From Limnohabitans sp. (lineage in GTDB: Bacteria; Pseudomonadota; Gammaproteobacteria; Burkholderiales; Burkholderiaceae_C), in the NCBI GenBank assembly GCA_030158125.1, contig JAOATL010000003.1:1-64000 (forward strand): a stretch of DNA of 64,000 nt, in the 5' to 3' direction. This document shows positions 36,225 through 46,541 of this stretch, piece after piece (position 1 is the stretch's first letter; the number at the start of each line of letters is the position of its first letter). The position numbers were made by a program, and so were the translations under genes. Under the pieces are notes generated by a model that did no database searches, was not told the DNA's origin, and was given only the letters and a program-made list of their open reading frames with translations.

Positions 36225-38234
36225 ATGGCCATCAAATATGGAACTGCTGGCAATGACAACCCTTTGCGGGGAACGTCTGGCAATGACTCGCTGTATGGGC
36301 TGGGGGGCGATGACCTTATTTTGTCTGAAGATGGCGAAGACTATGTTGAGGCGGGTGATGGGGATGATGAGATCAATGGCTACGATGGGGAGGCGGGGTC
36401 CTACACCTACTACCCAGTCATTGGTTTAAAAACAATTCACGGTGGCAACGGCAACGACTTCATTGTGGGCGGCGCCGTTGGTGATGCCTTGTATGGCGAT
36501 GATGGCAGTGATCAGATTTATGGCCGCAATGGCAACGATGTAATCAGTGGAGGCTTGGGCGCTGACTTCATGAGCGGCGGCGCTGGCGATGACACTTTTT
36601 ATGTGTCTGATTTCCATGATGTGATTGATGACTTGGAAGGCAATGACACCGCATACGTCGCCACCAGTTTCGTCAAAATTCCAAGCACGATTGAGCGAGT
36701 GGTTTACACCGATGGTGCATTGGCGTTGCCTTACTGGATTGATGCATTGTTGCCAGACGATGGCGCAGGCAACGCATTTGATACCCTGCTGGGAAGTGGT
36801 CGCACCTACTTCTACACCTTTCCAACATCACTGCCCTCGTACGACACCAACGCCAGCCATGGCTTGGGTTTCAAGGCTTTCAGCAATGTGCAAATGGCAA
36901 GGACGGAAAGTGCACTGAGTGAGGTGTCTTCTGTGATCAATGTGCATTTTCAGAAAACCAACAATGCCGGTGTGTTGAACACCTTGGTATTTGCCAACAA
37001 CGATCAGGTGTCTTCCGCAGGGTTTGGTAATTTTCCCAGCGCCTACATGATCGGCAGCGATTTGTATTTTGACAACTCAGATTTGAATGCCAGCTTTGCC
37101 GATCGAACGTATGGTGCATTAACGCTTGTCCACGAGATTGGCCACGGCTTGGGTTTGGAGCATCCTTTTTCACATGCGCAGGCCGGTGGCAGTGGGCTGG
37201 CCGATCCGCCCTACCTGACAGGTATGGAAGAAAGCACCACTTGGACCGTGATGAGCTACAACGACTCGTCGGCGCAATACTTTTTAAGCTTCAGCCCCCT
37301 CGACATTGCCGCGTTGCAATATGTGTACGGGCCTAGCAAAACGTCACGCACCGGCAACAACACCTATCAATTGTCTGCGACTGAACCCAACTTCATTTGG
37401 GATGGCGCAGGGGTCGACACGGTGGATGCGTCAGGACTTAACCAAGGTGTCACTGTTTACCTCACGCCTGGGCACTGGGGACATGTGGGCAATGTCAAAT
37501 CGAACAGCATCACGGCACCGGGCCAGGTCACTGTCAATTTTGGTTCCGCCATTGAAAACCTCACGGGGACATCTTTTGCAGACAAGTTGTTCGGCAATGA
37601 GTTGGCCAATGCGCTGATAGGTGGCACAGGCAGCGATTGGCTAGAAGGTTGGGCTGGCCAAGACTATTTGGTAGGTGGTCTGGGCGACGACCAGTTGACG
37701 GGTGGACCAGGCATCGACACCGCGCAGTTTAGCGGCGCTTATGACAGCTACAAGCTCACCCTTTCGTCCAGTGCATTGGGTGTGAAAGACAAACGCAGCA
37801 ATGCCGATGGCACCGATGTGCTGAGCAGTGTCGAGCGCCTCAAGTTTGCCGACAAAACAGTGGCCATGGACCTGGCGGGCAACGCCGGCGTGGTGGTTAA
37901 AGTGATTGGCGCCGTTCTGGGTGCAGATGCTGTCAAGTTACCCAACGTGGTGGGCATTGGCTTGCGCTATGTCGACAACGGCATGAGCTATGCCGATTTG
38001 GGTTTAACCGCCTTGAACGCCGTGGGCGCCTTCACACCCGATGCCATTGTGTCAACCCTGTGGCGCAACGTGGTGGGCTTGGCGGCATCTGACAAAGACA
38101 AAGCCCCGTACCTGAAAATGCTGGCAGAGGGCACCCAGCCGGGGGATCTGGTGATCTTGGCCGGCGACTTTTCAATGAACGTCAGCAAAATCGGGTTGAT
38201 GGGCTTGTCGCAAACGGGCATTGAGTTCAGTTAG
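36225..38234 (+). CDS. RTX zinc metalloprotease, serralysin-like, unusual domain order
   Basis: The 669-residue protein begins with calcium-binding nonapeptide repeats such as GTSGNDSLYGLGGDDLI and GGNGNDFIVGGAVGD (residues about 10-135). An M10/serralysin catalytic domain follows: zinc motif HEIGHGLGLEH at residues 303-313 and Met-turn VMSYND with the methionine at 343 and Tyr 345. A second short repeat block (GGTGSDWLEGWAGQD, about 470-505) and a C-terminal DUF4214-like region come last. Usual serralysins have the protease first. No signal peptide is seen, so type I secretion is expected, but no exporter is adjacent; the system at 59-63.7 kb is a candidate. Direct repeats flank the gene, which may have been acquired. 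Confidence 0.88.
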   Translation: MAIKYGTAGNDNPLRGTSGNDSLYGLGGDDLILSEDGEDYVEAGDGDDEINGYDGEAGSYTYYPVIGLKTIHGGNGNDFIVGGAVGDALYGDDGSDQIYGRNGNDVISGGLGADFMSGGAGDDTFYVSDFHDVIDDLEGNDTAYVATSFVKIPSTIERVVYTDGALALPYWIDALLPDDGAGNAFDTLLGSGRTYFYTFPTSLPSYDTNASHGLGFKAFSNVQMARTESALSEVSSVINVHFQKTNNAGVLNTLVFANNDQVSSAGFGNFPSAYMIGSDLYFDNSDLNASFADRTYGALTLVHEIGHGLGLEHPFSHAQAGGSGLADPPYLTGMEESTTWTVMSYNDSSAQYFLSFSPLDIAALQYVYGPSKTSRTGNNTYQLSATEPNFIWDGAGVDTVDASGLNQGVTVYLTPGHWGHVGNVKSNSITAPGQVTVNFGSAIENLTGTSFADKLFGNELANALIGGTGSDWLEGWAGQDYLVGGLGDDQLTGGPGIDTAQFSGAYDSYKLTLSSSALGVKDKRSNADGTDVLSSVERLKFADKTVAMDLAGNAGVVVKVIGAVLGADAVKLPNVVGIGLRYVDNGMSYADLGLTALNAVGAFTPDAIVSTLWRNVVGLAASDKDKAPYLKMLAEGTQPGDLVILAGDFSMNVSKIGLMGLSQTGIEFS

Positions 38235-38320: not shown

Positions 38321-38539
38321 ATGTGTGCCAAATTCTTGGCGTTGATGGCCCTCTTGGCGTTGCAGGCGTGCTCGCACATACAGCCTGTGGCGGCTTGGCA
38401 AAAAGGAACGCTGGCACTGCCTGAGATGAGCTTTGACGATGACTTGCTAGAGCGCGGTTACAAAGAACACATCTACAGCAGCAAAGAAGCATCGGCCGGT
38501 GGATCGGGTGTGGGCGGAGGTGGCTGTGGCTGCAACTAA
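38321..38539 (+). CDS. DUF4266 small lipoprotein
   Basis: This 72-residue protein has a lipoprotein signal (MCAKFLALMALLALQAC, lipobox LQAC). The mature part reads AAWQKGTLALPEMSF, then DDDLLERGYKEHIYSSKEA, and it ends in a Gly-rich tail with the Cys-Gly-Cys-Asn terminus. This is the DUF4266 pattern. The function is unknown. The gene is followed directly by DUF3570, ApbE and thioredoxin-like genes. The paired C-terminal cysteines could be oxidised by, or reduced by, the thioredoxin-like protein. It could instead be a substrate of post-translational modification. Both are inference. Confidence 0.88.
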   Translation: MCAKFLALMALLALQACSHIQPVAAWQKGTLALPEMSFDDDLLERGYKEHIYSSKEASAGGSGVGGGGCGCN

Positions 38540-39722
38540 AACCCCTTCACACAGCACAGAACTGGGCGCTGCACTGCTCAGTGCCGCCATGGCCTTGCCG
38601 TGCATCATGGGGGCGGCCCACGCCGGAAGTGCGCCAGAAAAAGGCACCCTCAGTTTCAAATTCCTCAACTACCAAGAGCGACAACAGCTTGGCAAAGATA
38701 CCGCTGTAGGCGGTGCCCCTCTCAGTGGCTACTCTGGCGCCTCTGCCTTTGATGAGCGCATTCGCGTCAAAGCCAGTGCCACCAACATCATGTTGCCATT
38801 GAACGCTGAGTGGTCCATGGCAGGCACTCTCATTACTGACAGCATCTCGGGTGCATCGCCTGCGTATCACACGCAAGCTTTGTCGGGCATGAAAGATTTT
38901 CGGCGTGCAGTAGACACCTCGCTCACACGCTACTTGCCGAACGGCACCCTCACAGTGGGCATGAGTCATTCTGGTGAGAACGATTACGTGTCGCGAGCGG
39001 TGTCTGTTTTGACCACACAAGTGTCTGAAGATAAAAACACCACTTGGACTGCGGGTCTGGGTTTAAACCGCGACGCCATTCAACCCGCCAATTTCATTGT
39101 GACCCATGAACAAAAGAAGGGCGCAGACCTGTTGCTGGGTGTCACACAAGTGTTCAGCATGAATGACATTGTGCAAGTCAACCTAGGGCATTACAGCGGC
39201 CACGGGTACTTTTCCGATCCGTACAAAATTTACGATGAGCGCCCTAGAGATCGGCAGCATCAAACGTTTCAGGCCCGATGGAACCACCATGTGGCTGCGT
39301 GGGGCGGTACATCGCGCTTGGCTTATCGCTACTACACCGATACGTGGGGCATTCGCTCGCATACCCTCGATGCTGAATGGGTGCAGCGCTTGGGAAGTGA
39401 TTGGCGTGTGGCGCCTTTGCTGCGTTTGTATTCACAAAATGCGGCGCGCTTTTATGTGGAAGTCGATCCGCGCATTGCGCCTTTTCCACCCAGTCCATTG
39501 CCCAGTGCTGTCCATTTTTCCGAAGACCAGCGACTCAGTGCCTTTGGTGCCATCACCATGGGTCTTAAAGTCACGCGCCAGTTGAATGTGGACACCTCAG
39601 TGGATGTGAAGGTGGAACAATACGGACAAAAAGCGGTTTGGAAATTCACAGGCGTAGGCAGTCAAGGGCTTGCGCCGTTTTATGCGCGCAGCATTCAAGT
39701 GGGCATCACGCACGCATTTTGA
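38526..39722 (+). CDS. DUF3570 outer-membrane beta-barrel protein with flavinylation-like motif
   Basis: The protein is about 398 residues from GTG 38526, which has GGAGG at proper spacing and overlaps the DUF4266 gene by 14 bp; GTG 38499 is an alternative. A signal peptide ends near GAAHA-GS. The mature protein is rich in alternating hydrophobic strands and ends in VGITHAF, a terminal phenylalanine as in outer-membrane barrels. Residues 105-111 read DSISGAS, which fits the Dxx(S/T)GA(T/S) pattern to which ApbE attaches FMN, and apbE is the next gene. Function is unknown; a flavin-bearing outer-membrane protein is my inference. Confidence 0.85.
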   Translation: MAATKTPSHSTELGAALLSAAMALPCIMGAAHAGSAPEKGTLSFKFLNYQERQQLGKDTAVGGAPLSGYSGASAFDERIRVKASATNIMLPLNAEWSMAGTLITDSISGASPAYHTQALSGMKDFRRAVDTSLTRYLPNGTLTVGMSHSGENDYVSRAVSVLTTQVSEDKNTTWTAGLGLNRDAIQPANFIVTHEQKKGADLLLGVTQVFSMNDIVQVNLGHYSGHGYFSDPYKIYDERPRDRQHQTFQARWNHHVAAWGGTSRLAYRYYTDTWGIRSHTLDAEWVQRLGSDWRVAPLLRLYSQNAARFYVEVDPRIAPFPPSPLPSAVHFSEDQRLSAFGAITMGLKVTRQLNVDTSVDVKVEQYGQKAVWKFTGVGSQGLAPFYARSIQVGITHAF

Positions 39723-39724
39723 TC

Positions 39725-40639
39725 ATGCACGCTAGTTCAAGCTTGGCCGTTCAGCGCTATCCCTTCAGGGCCATGGGCAGTGCGTGTGAAGTGGTGCTGG
39801 TGGCCAGCAGTGCGCAGGATGCCCAGCGCCTGGCGCAAAGTGCCATTGATGAAGTGCTGCGCATTGAACGCAAATACTCGCGCTACACGGCCGATTCGAT
39901 CGTTGCCAAGATCAACCAAAAAGCAGGTTTGAACGCGGTTGTGTGTGACGATGAAACATGGGCCTTGTTGCAATATGCGTCTAAGTTGCATGAACAAAGT
40001 AATGGCCTGTTTGACATCACATCGGGCGTGCTGCGAGCAGCTTGGAATTTCAAAGTGCCCGCCATACCTTCAGCAGAAATGCTAGACGAGCTGCGTGCCA
40101 AAGTAGGCTGGCAAAAGGTGGTCCTGAAAAATCAAAGCATTGCTTTGCCTATTGCAGGAATGGAAATTGACTTAGGCGGCTTTGGCAAAGAGTACGCAGC
40201 CGACAGGGCTGCACAAGTGCTGCAAACTCAAGGCGTGGCCAGTGGCTATGTGAACTTGGCAGGCGACATGCGATTCTTGGGGCCAAAACTGACGGGTGAG
40301 CCTTGGATGATTGGCATTCAAGACCCTCGCCACCCAGACCAGGTTGTGGCCACTTTGCCCATGGTGCAGGGTGGCTTGGCCACCAGTGGTGACTATGAGC
40401 GCTATTTCGAATTGAATGGCGAGCGCTATTGTCATGTGCTCAACCCCTTCACAGGATGGCCGGTGAAGTATTGGCGCACTGTGAGTGTGACGGCGCCTGC
40501 GGCTGTGGTGGCAGGCTGCACCAGCACCATGGCGATGCTGATGGAACAAGAGGGGCTGTCATTTTTGCAAGCCACAGGCTTTGATTTTTTGGCAATTGAC
40601 CATGCAGGCAATGTGCACATGCGTCAGCAAGCCGCTTGA
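39725..40639 (+). CDS. apbE: FAD:protein FMN transferase (ApbE)
   Basis: The 304-residue ApbE-family protein covalently attaches FMN from FAD to Ser/Thr in target proteins outside the cytoplasm. It starts MHASSSLAVQRYPFRAMGSACEVVLVA. Further landmarks are ITSGVLRAAW, VNLAGDMRFLGPK, GGLATSGDYERYF and NPFTGWPVKYW, all typical of the family. There is no obvious signal peptide in this frame, so the periplasmic location is unclear; an N-terminal uncleaved or missed segment is possible. It begins 2 bp after DUF3570. No FMN-bind or Nqr/Rnf target gene is in the window, so DUF3570 is the nearest candidate. Confidence 0.88.
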   Translation: MHASSSLAVQRYPFRAMGSACEVVLVASSAQDAQRLAQSAIDEVLRIERKYSRYTADSIVAKINQKAGLNAVVCDDETWALLQYASKLHEQSNGLFDITSGVLRAAWNFKVPAIPSAEMLDELRAKVGWQKVVLKNQSIALPIAGMEIDLGGFGKEYAADRAAQVLQTQGVASGYVNLAGDMRFLGPKLTGEPWMIGIQDPRHPDQVVATLPMVQGGLATSGDYERYFELNGERYCHVLNPFTGWPVKYWRTVSVTAPAAVVAGCTSTMAMLMEQEGLSFLQATGFDFLAIDHAGNVHMRQQAA

Positions 40640-40685
40640 CCCCCTTTGCATTGCGTCTTTGCCTGGCCCCATTAAACTGTCGCCT

Positions 40686-41159
40686 ATGAAACTCAAATGG
40701 ATTGCAGCTTTGCTGTTGGGTCTGCTGTTGCAGACCGGTCGTGTTCTGGCCGTAGAGGCTGGCAAGCCATTGCCTGTTTTGGATTTGGCAGAAGTGCAAT
40801 CTGTCCCAGGGCAGTTTGTCTACATTGACTATTGGGCGTCGTGGTGTGGGCCTTGTCGGCAGTCTTTTCCTTGGATGAATGTTTTGCAGGCCAAGTTGGG
40901 TCCCAAGGGGCTCAAGGTGGTGGCAGTGAATGTGGATGCCAAGCGTGCAGATGCCGACAAGTTTTTGGCGCACACGCCAGCGCAGTTCACCATTGCTTAC
41001 GACCCGCAGGGTTTGTCTGCCAAGCGCTTGGCCATCAAGACCATGCCCACTTCGATGTTGGTGAGTCCGGAGGGGCTGGTGCTGTTGGTTCATTCCGGTT
41101 TTAGAACGGAAGAGGCAGGGCAGTTGGAGGCTAAGATCTTAGGCGCCATGGTGCGGTAA
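40686..41159 (+). CDS. TlpA/ResA-like thioredoxin-fold protein
   Basis: The 157-residue protein has an export segment (MKLKWIAALLLGLLLQTG, cleavage near VLA-VEAG). The thioredoxin core shows YIDYWASWCGPCRQSFPW with the CGPC active site and the cis-proline in KTMPTSMLV. It likely acts as a periplasmic disulfide reductant. The ATG at 40686 has normal spacing. It is the last gene of the DUF4266-DUF3570-apbE set, 46 bp downstream of apbE. Its job is probably to keep the CGC-type cysteines of the DUF4266 protein in a given redox state (inference). Confidence 0.88.
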   Translation: MKLKWIAALLLGLLLQTGRVLAVEAGKPLPVLDLAEVQSVPGQFVYIDYWASWCGPCRQSFPWMNVLQAKLGPKGLKVVAVNVDAKRADADKFLAHTPAQFTIAYDPQGLSAKRLAIKTMPTSMLVSPEGLVLLVHSGFRTEEAGQLEAKILGAMVR

Positions 41160-43729: not shown

Positions 43730-43877
43730 CGCCTGATTGTGCAAGTTTGCGCGCCATCGAATGACGCGGACAAACCCTGTTGAGCGCTTAACCCTAAGCA
43801 CATCAGGGCTTGGTGTTAACCCCAGTGAAGGCCTCTTTAGAATGCTCACATTACTGAATTCTAGACTTGGACTTCTC

Positions 43878-46541
43878 ATGGCTCGCATTGAATGTCAATT
43901 AACCTGCTTCAACCGTTCACTGCTGTCGGCAGCTTGTTGGAGTTTGTTGGCGTGGTCTTCAGTGCAGGCGCAATCGCCTACTGCACCCCCGGTTGCCCCC
44001 GCCAATGGTTCAGCCCCGGTTGCCGGCGCCGCCACAGCGGCTTCACCCGTAGCAGCCCCCGGTGCCCTGCGTCCCATGAAGGACATTCTGAAAGACGCCA
44101 AGTCCACCCCTGGCTTTTTCACTTTGCATCAACGGGATGAGAAGGTTTGGTTGGAAATCTTGCCATCGCAATTGGGCAAACCATTTTTCTTTTCATACAA
44201 CGTGCCTCGCTCGATCGGTGAGCGCGGTTTGTACGGTAGCCAAATGGGTGGCTCCAAATTGGTGGCGTTTCAAAAAGTGGGCAACCAGGTTCAGCTGATT
44301 GCCAAGAACACACAGTTTTTCGCAAAAGAGGGCACGCCCCAAGCGCAGTTTGTGTCTGAGTCTTTCTCTGACAGTTTGATGAGCAGCGCAGCTGTGGTGT
44401 CTGCCCCGCATCCTGAAACCAAATCTATTTTGATTGAGGCCAACGCGCTGTTGTTCACGGACATTCCGGGTTATCAAACTCGCATCGAAGCAGCCTTTCG
44501 CATGCCCTTTGGGCTTGATGTCAGAAACACCTCGTTTAGCAGTCTCAAAAATACAAGCACCCTCACAGGCCTTGAGGTCAGAGCGCATTTTGCGGTGCCT
44601 AAGTTGCCTGCGCCGCCCATGATGCCTTCGCCCGTGCCAACACCGCCACCGCCCAGCGCCACGCCCGATCCGCGCAGCATGTTTGTGTCCTTCTATTACA
44701 GCTTCATGCCGTTGCCCGAACCTATGGCAACGCGCGTGGCCGATGAGCGTGTGGGCTTTTTTACAGTGCCTCGCACAGACTACACCACCGACCTCAACGT
44801 CAAATCCAAAACGCATTTGCTCAAACGTTGGCGCCTGGAAAAGAAGGACGCGAGTGCCGCTGTGTCCGAGCCCAAAGAACCCATCGTGTATTGGCTGGAC
44901 AAGAACATTCCAGAAAAATACCGTGAGTCTGTGATGCTGGGCATTTTGGAATGGAACAAAGCCTTTGAACGTGCTGGTTTCAAGAACGCCATTGTTGCCA
45001 AGCAGCAGCAAGCGTCTGATGATTTCAACAACATGGACGCGCGCCATGCCTCGGTGCGTTGGTTCACAGGTGCCGATGTGGGCTTTGCCATTGGCCCGTC
45101 ACAAGCCGATCCACGTACGGGTGAAATCTTGGACGCCGACATCGGCATGGCCGATGTGTTCACGCGCGGTGCACGCCGTTTGGTCATCGAAGATTTGGCG
45201 CGTGTGCGCGGAGCCGATGGCGAGTTGTGTGAGCATGCAGCAGATGCAGCACAAGAGTTGCATTACGCGCTCGATTTGCTGGAAGCCCGTGGTTTGGAAT
45301 TGGACAGCCCACAAGCAGAAGCCTTGGCCAAAGCATATTTGAAAGACGTCATCATGCACGAGGTGGGTCACACCTTGGGCTTGCGCCACAATTTCCGTGC
45401 GTCAACGGTATATGACTTGAAGCAAATTCAAGATCCCAATTTCACCAAAGTCAATGGTGTCACGGCATCGGTCATGGATTACACGCCCTACAACATCGCA
45501 GTCAAGGGCGAGAAACAAGGTGAGTACGTCATGTCCACCCTAGGCCCTTACGATTACTGGGCCATTGAGTTTGGCTACAAACAGTTTGACGCCGGCCAAG
45601 AAGCGCAAGGCTTGGCGCAAATTTTGGCCAAGGCCGGTCAACGTGAGCTGCAATTTGACACCGATGAAGACGCAGGCTACGGCAGCACGGGCGGCATCGA
45701 CCCCTTGGTGAACCGCTTTGATTTGGGTGCCGATCCGCTGGCGTACTACAAACAGCGCATGAAGCTGTCACGCGAGTTGTGGGACCGTTTGCAAAATATG
45801 AACTTGGCCACAGGCGAGAGTTACGAACGCCTCACACGCAGCTTCCGCAGTGGTTTCAGTCAATTGGCGCGTGTGGCGCCTTTGGCCGCCAAGTACATTG
45901 GCGGCGTGCACACACGTCGCGAGCGTGCGGGTAGCAACAAGCCTTTGTTTGAGCCCGTGAGTGCCGCTCAGCAACGAGAGGCTTTGAGCTTGGTGACCAA
46001 AGATTTCTTTGGGACTGACAGCTTCAAGTTCAAGCCAGAACTGATTGCCCGTTTGGCTACCGACCGTTTGGACAGGGGTGCCACAGACAGTGGCTTGCAA
46101 ACTTCTGTCGCCTCTTTGGTGGCCGGTGTGCAAAGAGGCATCCTTGACCATATTTACGCTCCCTCTGTCGCTGCTCGATTGGCTGAAGTCAGCATGAAGG
46201 TCAACGATCCCAAAGACAGTTTGGGCTTGGCCGATGTTTACGATGCAGTGCAAGACGCCATATGGTCGGAAGCCAAATCGGGTCAAGAAACCAACTTGAT
46301 GCGACGCAATTTGCAGCGCGAACAGTTGCGCCGCATGACCGATGTATTGGTGAAGCCTGCCGGGCCATGGCCTGCAGATGCGCGCAGCATCTTGCGTGAA
46401 AATGCACGCCAGTTGGCCAATGCCTTAGAGAAGGCTTTGGCCAAACCAGGTTTGTCTAAAACCACGCGCGCCCATTACGCCGACGCACTCGATGCCCTCA
46501 ATGCCACCCTGAAAGCCTCGGTACAACGCGCAGCGCCTTGA
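43878..46541 (+). CDS. Large zinc metalloprotease (DUF4953/DUF5117-type)
   Basis: The protein has about 887 residues with a signal peptide (MARIECQLTCFNRSLLSAAC then cleavage near VQA-QS) and a Pro/Ala-rich linker. It has the extended zinc motif HEVGHTLGLRH at about residues 494-504, followed by SVMDYTPYN, a Met-turn. The segments VYWLDKNIPEKYRESVMLGILEWNKAFERAGF and FTRGARRLVIEDLARV match the DUF5117/DUF4953 zinc-dependent metalloprotease family. It faces the giant adhesin gene end-to-end with 7 bp between stops. An ATG at 43842 is an alternative start. A role in processing surface proteins such as the neighbouring adhesin is possible but only suggested by position. Confidence 0.85.
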   Translation: MARIECQLTCFNRSLLSAACWSLLAWSSVQAQSPTAPPVAPANGSAPVAGAATAASPVAAPGALRPMKDILKDAKSTPGFFTLHQRDEKVWLEILPSQLGKPFFFSYNVPRSIGERGLYGSQMGGSKLVAFQKVGNQVQLIAKNTQFFAKEGTPQAQFVSESFSDSLMSSAAVVSAPHPETKSILIEANALLFTDIPGYQTRIEAAFRMPFGLDVRNTSFSSLKNTSTLTGLEVRAHFAVPKLPAPPMMPSPVPTPPPPSATPDPRSMFVSFYYSFMPLPEPMATRVADERVGFFTVPRTDYTTDLNVKSKTHLLKRWRLEKKDASAAVSEPKEPIVYWLDKNIPEKYRESVMLGILEWNKAFERAGFKNAIVAKQQQASDDFNNMDARHASVRWFTGADVGFAIGPSQADPRTGEILDADIGMADVFTRGARRLVIEDLARVRGADGELCEHAADAAQELHYALDLLEARGLELDSPQAEALAKAYLKDVIMHEVGHTLGLRHNFRASTVYDLKQIQDPNFTKVNGVTASVMDYTPYNIAVKGEKQGEYVMSTLGPYDYWAIEFGYKQFDAGQEAQGLAQILAKAGQRELQFDTDEDAGYGSTGGIDPLVNRFDLGADPLAYYKQRMKLSRELWDRLQNMNLATGESYERLTRSFRSGFSQLARVAPLAAKYIGGVHTRRERAGSNKPLFEPVSAAQQREALSLVTKDFFGTDSFKFKPELIARLATDRLDRGATDSGLQTSVASLVAGVQRGILDHIYAPSVAARLAEVSMKVNDPKDSLGLADVYDAVQDAIWSEAKSGQETNLMRRNLQREQLRRMTDVLVKPAGPWPADARSILRENARQLANALEKALAKPGLSKTTRAHYADALDALNATLKASVQRAAP

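Follow-up and report, generated by a model that had tools for sequence, protein, structure and literature searches.

The DNA analyzed here, a 64,000-nucleotide stretch of contig JAOATL010000003.1 from Limnohabitans sp. (the window; its genome, G000, is 3.06 Mb), carries on the + strand four consecutive genes encoding a DUF4266 lipoprotein, a DUF3570 protein, the flavin transferase ApbE, and a TlpA/ResA-like thioredoxin. We lean toward reading this operon as a representative, in Limnohabitans, of the known DUF4266/DUF3570/ApbE/thioredoxin flavin module, taken jointly with a mechanism in which flavin mononucleotide (FMN) would be attached in the cytosol, the modified protein would form a 16-strand outer-membrane barrel, and electrons would pass from thiols to the flavin. 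Comparison with related loci suggests three additions to what is known of the module: a clade of ApbE proteins without signal peptides, a predicted extracellular flavin site, and motif-bearing RTX-type partner proteins.

The operon and the published flavin module

Pfam places all four proteins in the families, and in the order, proposed by an earlier note on this DNA. The lipoprotein gene (38321–38539; PF14086, 6.2e-21; lipobox LQAC identified by eye) encodes the C-terminus GGGGCGCN, with the translated tail GCGCN. The Cys-Gly-Cys end that had been noted is thus present, and its codons (38525–38533) overlap the start of the DUF3570 gene (PF12094, 2.8e-60), which runs from GTG 38520 or GTG 38526 to 39722. 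As the note had said, apbE (39725–40639; PF02424, 2.8e-74) follows directly, starting 2 bases past the DUF3570 stop. The last gene (40686–41159) encodes a periplasmic thioredoxin with a signal peptide recognized by eye and the expected CGPC motif at 40845–40856. It matches Redoxin, AhpC-TSA, Thioredoxin_8, and Thioredoxin; PF13899, the family in the 2021 paper discussed below, is not among its Pfam matches. By profile, and also by eye, it corresponds to the thioredoxin encoded upstream in relatives. A search of G000 found a single ApbE, a single DUF3570, and a single DsbD_TM protein. No FMN_bind domain was found; DUF2271, NqrB/RnfD, and flavodoxin-type substrate classes were not searched for. 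Among four sampled genomes of the genus, DUF3570 and ApbE occur together in G000 and G231, and neither occurs in G577 or G650. The window's DUF3570 protein is 98% identical to that of a Limnohabitans metagenome-assembled genome (L131).

Clusters of ApbE, DUF3570, thioredoxin, and DUF4266 genes were described by Meheust et al. (2021, eLife; PMC8238504), who showed ApbE-dependent flavinylation of the Chlorobium luteolum DUF3570 protein. This protein was coexpressed with its own ApbE in Escherichia coli, and the sites were mapped by Ser-to-Ala changes. The earlier note had considered flavinylation of such a barrel novel; that part is mistaken, because it is already published for the C. luteolum DUF3570 and ApbE with the same set of neighbors. 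The cloning is described there as "similar" to a strategy using signal-peptide-truncated genes, and most of the DUF3570 protein ended up in the pellet; ApbE is therefore probably able to modify a barrel that has not been exported. Like the published system, the window has an ApbE, a DUF3570 protein with [S/T]GA[S/T], a thioredoxin-like protein, and a DUF4266 protein with a C-terminal CXC; unlike it, the window carries its thioredoxin gene at the end rather than the start of the cluster, and its genome encodes DsbD elsewhere. The main text of the 2021 paper contains neither "barrel" nor "RTX," and "outer membrane" occurs once, about siderophore receptors. Within the literature searched, DUF3570 and DUF4266 were found in this paper only. 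Huang et al. (2024; PMC11334425) model other ApbE substrates and do not name DUF3570.

The comparison covers 80 named loci, 61 of which have apbE on the same strand. An open reading frame (ORF) with a DUF4266-like Cys tail, searched for by the tail pattern, lies close to DUF3570 in 51 of the 61. The gene after apbE has a DsbD-type tail in 19 of the 61, including loci in Duganella, Massilia, and Chlorobiaceae (confirmed by Pfam in 3/3), in agreement with the published model; elsewhere in Duganella and Massilia, an RTX-type gene occupies this place. The thioredoxin gene comes last in the Limnohabitans group.

Acceptor motifs and the predicted barrel

The motif DSISGAS (38838–38858, + strand) occupies residues 105–111 when counted from GTG 38526, as the earlier note had it, and 107–113 when counted from GTG 38520. 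It fits the ApbE acceptor pattern, given as D-x-x-[S/T]-G-A-[S/T], in which loss of the Asp had only a minor effect in one model protein (PMC12052999). The note had named conservation of the motif in the family as the check to make. The strict form [ST]GA[ST] is found at this same position in 137 of 152 DUF3570 sequences, which places DSISGAS above chance; it is absent in 12, and in the remaining 3 the position lies beyond the scanned stretch, with the motif visible in another alignment. In a 60-sequence DUF3570 alignment, D72 and A77 (model numbering, equal to P0001 numbering minus 35) are conserved at 90% or more.

The structure model of the window DUF3570 (predicted local distance difference test score 92.2) has 16 strands and matches known barrels, and a second DUF3570 homologue gives a similar model. 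The protein has a signal peptide, an even strand count, loops alternating with short turns, and a C-terminal aromatic residue, which are all the features looked for in an outer-membrane barrel. A 16-strand barrel is confidently predicted, bearing out the earlier description of the protein as barrel-like. Searched by sequence against solved structures, DUF3570 gave a single match only, at E 0.72. The model places DSISGAS in extracellular loop 2. The earlier proposal of FMN on DUF3570 is well supported, given the published case (PMC8238504), in all but its suggestion of a periplasmic part, since the predicted site faces outward. The 24 most conserved positions are all on the outer side, in loops or at the ends of strands, a region that makes up 202 of 357 positions.

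The earlier note overlooked a second SGAS (38733–38744, + strand), predicted to lie in extracellular loop 1 and a candidate second FMN site, with no Asp at −3. It sits in a loop-1 insert, outside the usual position of a second motif. This insert reads DSKSGAS in six near relatives (L133–L138) and GYSGAS in the window and L131, and L132 has none. The usual second motif is lost in the window (QALSGMKD versus, for example, AISGASKMKE), and from these sequences the loop-1 SGAS may replace it. In the C. luteolum protein, both of two acceptor motifs are modified (PMC8238504). Across 137 DUF3570 sequences, the second site is in loop 1 only in 25, in loop 2 only in 44, in both in 1, and in neither in 67. 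Mutual exclusion of the two sites was considered and is not relied on: only 2–4 independent tree pairs are available, and a sign test on them cannot reach 0.05.

The family also contains a second DUF3570 subfamily (L052, L053, L057, L059–L064; two regions annotated in part) with no apbE directly beside it. Its members keep partly degenerate DxxS[SN]AS motifs, sometimes DxVSSAS or DAVSNAS. In six cases, with L125, L129, L057, and L059 (G267, G246, G366) included in this subfamily, another ApbE lies ~7–18 kb away on the same contig, and HZS_alpha-domain proteins lie between DUF3570 and the distant ApbE in both scanned regions (L125, L129). This subfamily is possibly part of a larger related system. 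Some Chlorobiaceae loci carry tandem DUF3570 paralogues, four in L172 and two each in L177 and L156, and some of these paralogues have Gly/Ser-rich loops with additional SGAS motifs.

A clade of ApbE proteins without apparent signal peptides

A further feature missing from the earlier note is that the window ApbE has no signal peptide or lipobox, as judged by a hydropathy and pattern test. This test, which is crude and is not SignalP, takes the mean of a 12-residue stretch before the catalytic domain, with thresholds of 2.0 and 1.8 and permissive upstream starts. Among 105 ApbEs encoded within 3.5 kb of a DUF3570 gene on the same strand, none scores at least 2.0 and only two score at least 1.8, both via far-upstream TTG starts. 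The corresponding counts for 29 other ApbEs, comprising three loci near DUF3570s and the best-scoring matches of an ApbE search rather than all matches, are 25 and 26. By the same test, scores of at least 1.8 are reached by 102 of the 111 thioredoxins and by 124 of the 151 DUF3570s. The nearest start codon lies 7–20 residues before the catalytic domain in 81 of the 105 adjacent ApbEs and nearer in 20.

A quick tree built with 59 adjacent ApbEs and 29 others places all of the former beyond a single branch with a value of 99% (Shimodaira–Hasegawa-like approximate likelihood ratio test only). They are joined by L046, an "other" ApbE encoded beside a DUF3570 gene on the opposite strand. The two sets also differ at the position of the catalytic-triad Asp, which is Gly in 102/102 aligned adjacent ApbEs and Asp or Glu in 28/29 others, with L046 the exception. 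The triad Ser and His are retained in 103/103 aligned clade members, and the window ApbE likewise has Gly for Asp, as do all six Chlorobiaceae ApbEs inspected. The triad Asp is Asp285 in Vibrio cholerae ApbE (PMC12052999); equating it with the Gly position is our own identification, made from its spacing to the conserved His, which is 27 for the window ApbE and 28 for 25/29 others. From the PF02424 score and the published activity of a Chlorobium ApbE (PMC8238504), we infer that the window ApbE is active.

Because DUF3570 has a signal peptide and its ApbE seems to lack one, the simplest reading is that the flavin is attached before export, and attachment is probably cytosolic. A cytosolic ApbE has been described in Klebsiella pneumoniae, where it flavinylates a soluble fumarate reductase in the cytoplasm (PMC12052999). 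The window ApbE resembles this enzyme in having no signal peptide; unlike its soluble substrate, the window substrate is an exported outer-membrane protein.

RTX-type partner proteins

Related betaproteobacteria often encode an RTX-type protein without cysteine in the position after apbE (23 of the 61 loci); in 21 of the 23, its gene starts no more than 60 bases from the apbE stop. Pfam was run on seven of these partners and found HemolysinCabind in 7, Big_5 in 6, and DUF4214 in 5; the remainder are so named by alignment. Within the first ~90 residues, D-x-x-S-[GS]-A-S is present in 19 of the 23 and the canonical D-x-x-S-G-A-S in 16, and the D, A, and S are invariant across 22 aligned partners.

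A profile of the N-terminal module (E ≤ 1e-6) has matches in 6 of 299 family genomes, and all six belong to the 64 genomes that have DUF3570 (p 8e-5; counted by genus, 1.3e-3). Because it was built from motif-bearing proteins, the profile favors motif-bearing matches. Each of the six genomes has one match with the canonical motif, which in five lies no more than ~3 kb from DUF3570 and on its strand; two additional modules bring the total to 8, and one of these two, L242, has no motif. The window's genome is the sixth: its contig C13 carries an ORF (~13.5–14.4 kb, at most 303 aa) containing DAVSGAS. The HemolysinCabind match of this ORF, at 20.8 bits, is under the 23-bit cut-off. It has one Cys in its stop-to-stop frame and no ATG or GTG start before the neighborhood of the motif, and its start is likely TTG. 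A type I secretion system (two ABC genes, one HlyD, and one TolC-type gene) lies directly upstream, and DUF1800, DUF1501, and M10-RTX genes lie downstream. The relative G685 has a counterpart with DAISGAS. Gene order across this type I secretion operon region (L234:2118–14421; contig C13, ~7.1–19.4 kb) is similar in a related genome (L235).

Twelve further RTX matches were obtained. L227, L231, and L233 were left out of the count, and the nine counted (L221, L222, L224–L226, L228–L230, L232) have no motif at the matching position. L221 (E 1.3e-11) has a complete N-terminal module without the motif, and L229 has DLQTGAT elsewhere in the protein. Since the common module has a D..xG pattern at this position, the RTX motif may have converged from a similar starting point. 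RTX repeats are abundant in two genomes, with 116 matches in G689 and 162 in G691, so adjacency means less there. A strict link between RTX partners and single-site barrels was rejected, as the window's clade has the SGAS in loop 1 as well as, elsewhere, an RTX-type ORF with the motif.

Substrates of type I secretion never enter the periplasm. Only a cytosolic ApbE could therefore modify an RTX-type protein secreted by this route, which fits the signal-less clade. In the literature searched, no paper was found that links RTX or type I secretion with flavinylation, or that brings together ApbE, FMN transferase, outer membrane, and barrel; two papers that mention both RTX and covalently bound flavin have, judging by their titles, other subjects. 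We consider it possible, though we would not yet favor it, that one cytosolic ApbE serves both the DUF3570 barrel and a type I-secreted RTX-type flavoprotein that docks at the barrel mouth, with a second relay flavin on the barrel loop or on the RTX-type protein.

Neighboring genes in the window

Directly upstream of the operon, the window encodes an RTX protein of the serralysin (M10) metalloprotease type (36225–38234, + strand; Pfam and NCBIfam). It is cysteine-free and was rejected as a flavinylation substrate because it lacks the ApbE motif. An RTX protease gene lies upstream in five of the eight Limnohabitans-group loci with upstream sequence (L131, L133, L134, L136, L137) and is absent in L132, L135, and L138; L139 has no upstream sequence. 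The gene is perhaps associated with the operon rather than part of its core. The C-terminal end of the protein (..GLSQTGIEFS) is similar by eye to that of the RTX-type partner in L160 (..GLQQTGLEYS). Farther along, 43737–46541 encodes a 934-aa DUF5117/DUF4953 met-zincin protein with a homologue close to the operon in L132, L133, and L139.

Proposed mechanism and alternatives

From what was computed here (the genes, the motif, the missing signal peptide, the ApbE clade, and the predicted barrel and loop), together with DUF3570 flavinylation as published for a relative, we infer the cytosolic timing of attachment, the electron path, its direction, and its acceptor. In the proposed mechanism, the dedicated signal-less ApbE would move FMN from flavin adenine dinucleotide (FAD) to Ser113 of DSISGAS on the DUF3570 chain in the cytosol, and the loop-1 SGAS would perhaps also receive FMN. 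The FMN-bearing chain would then be exported and inserted as a 16-strand barrel, leaving the flavin in an extracellular loop near the conserved mouth. The most likely electron route would start at DsbD, run through the TlpA-like thioredoxin and then the Cys-Gly-Cys tail of the DUF4266 lipoprotein to the flavin, and end at an extracellular acceptor. Porin–cytochrome conduits such as MtrCAB also use an outer-membrane barrel. Like them, the DUF3570 barrel would carry electrons between the periplasm and the outside; unlike them, the four genes include no heme protein, and the covalent flavin is predicted on the barrel itself, with thiol partners instead.

Several observations sit uneasily with this proposal. 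A signal peptide truncated from the C. luteolum ApbE, if one truly existed, would be at odds with the Chlorobiaceae ApbEs examined here. The 29 comparison ApbEs were drawn mostly from best-scoring matches, and the missing triad Asp could mean weak or altered activity in the clade. A mean gradient of conservation along the barrel strands is not significant (outer versus inner strand thirds, p 0.29), which leaves the count of the 24 most conserved positions as the one strong result on conservation. The DsbD gene does not adjoin the operon. The mechanism also has to suppose export of an FMN-bearing chain and an electron route through the barrel to the outer loop and an acceptor.

The cytosolic timing would be wrong if ApbE were exported nonclassically, or if its true start lay further upstream, and it modified the unfolded barrel in the periplasm. 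ApbEs for secreted targets are described as membrane-anchored in the periplasm (PMC12052999), and the hydropathy test is crude. Set against this are the absence of any score of 2.0 or more among the 105 adjacent ApbEs despite permissive starts, the short distances from start codon to domain, and the presence of the same motif in RTX-type partners expected to bypass the periplasm, so we judge periplasmic attachment improbable. A still smaller chance attaches to DSISGAS being merely a structural loop beside an ApbE that, without its triad Asp, is inactive or has another role. The uniform Gly at the Asp position and the degenerate motifs of the subfamily without an adjacent apbE are compatible with that view; however, the triad Ser and His are kept throughout, the six Chlorobiaceae members inspected all have Gly, and a Chlorobium ApbE, the sequence of which was not examined, was active (PMC8238504).

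The direction of electron flow is a separate matter. Thioredoxin, the Cys-Gly-Cys tail, and DsbD are thiol-exchange parts, and the module might carry electrons inward or oxidize or repair thiols of surface or exported proteins without reducing an outside acceptor. DsbD, however, normally exports reducing power, and the model puts the flavin site on the outer face, at a distance from thiols in the periplasm. The sequence does not fix the direction, and the 2021 authors regard flow as reversible in principle (PMC8238504). We consider this alternative rather unlikely and retain cytosolic attachment with outward electron flow as the preferred reading.

Implications

Attachment of the flavin ahead of export would require covalently modified chains to get through the Sec and beta-barrel assembly (BAM) machineries. 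Such attachment would explain how exported flavoproteins can be made without periplasmic FAD. The 2021 authors call the function of the DUF3570 system uncertain (PMC8238504), and an extracellular site on the barrel provides a concrete hypothesis for it. RTX-type proteins that bear the motif and are encoded behind an ApbE without a signal peptide would bring type I secretion within the reach of flavinylation. If one ApbE does serve both the barrel and such a secreted protein, the latter would be a new class of ApbE substrate, and the system would form a thiol–flavin conduit through the outer membrane.

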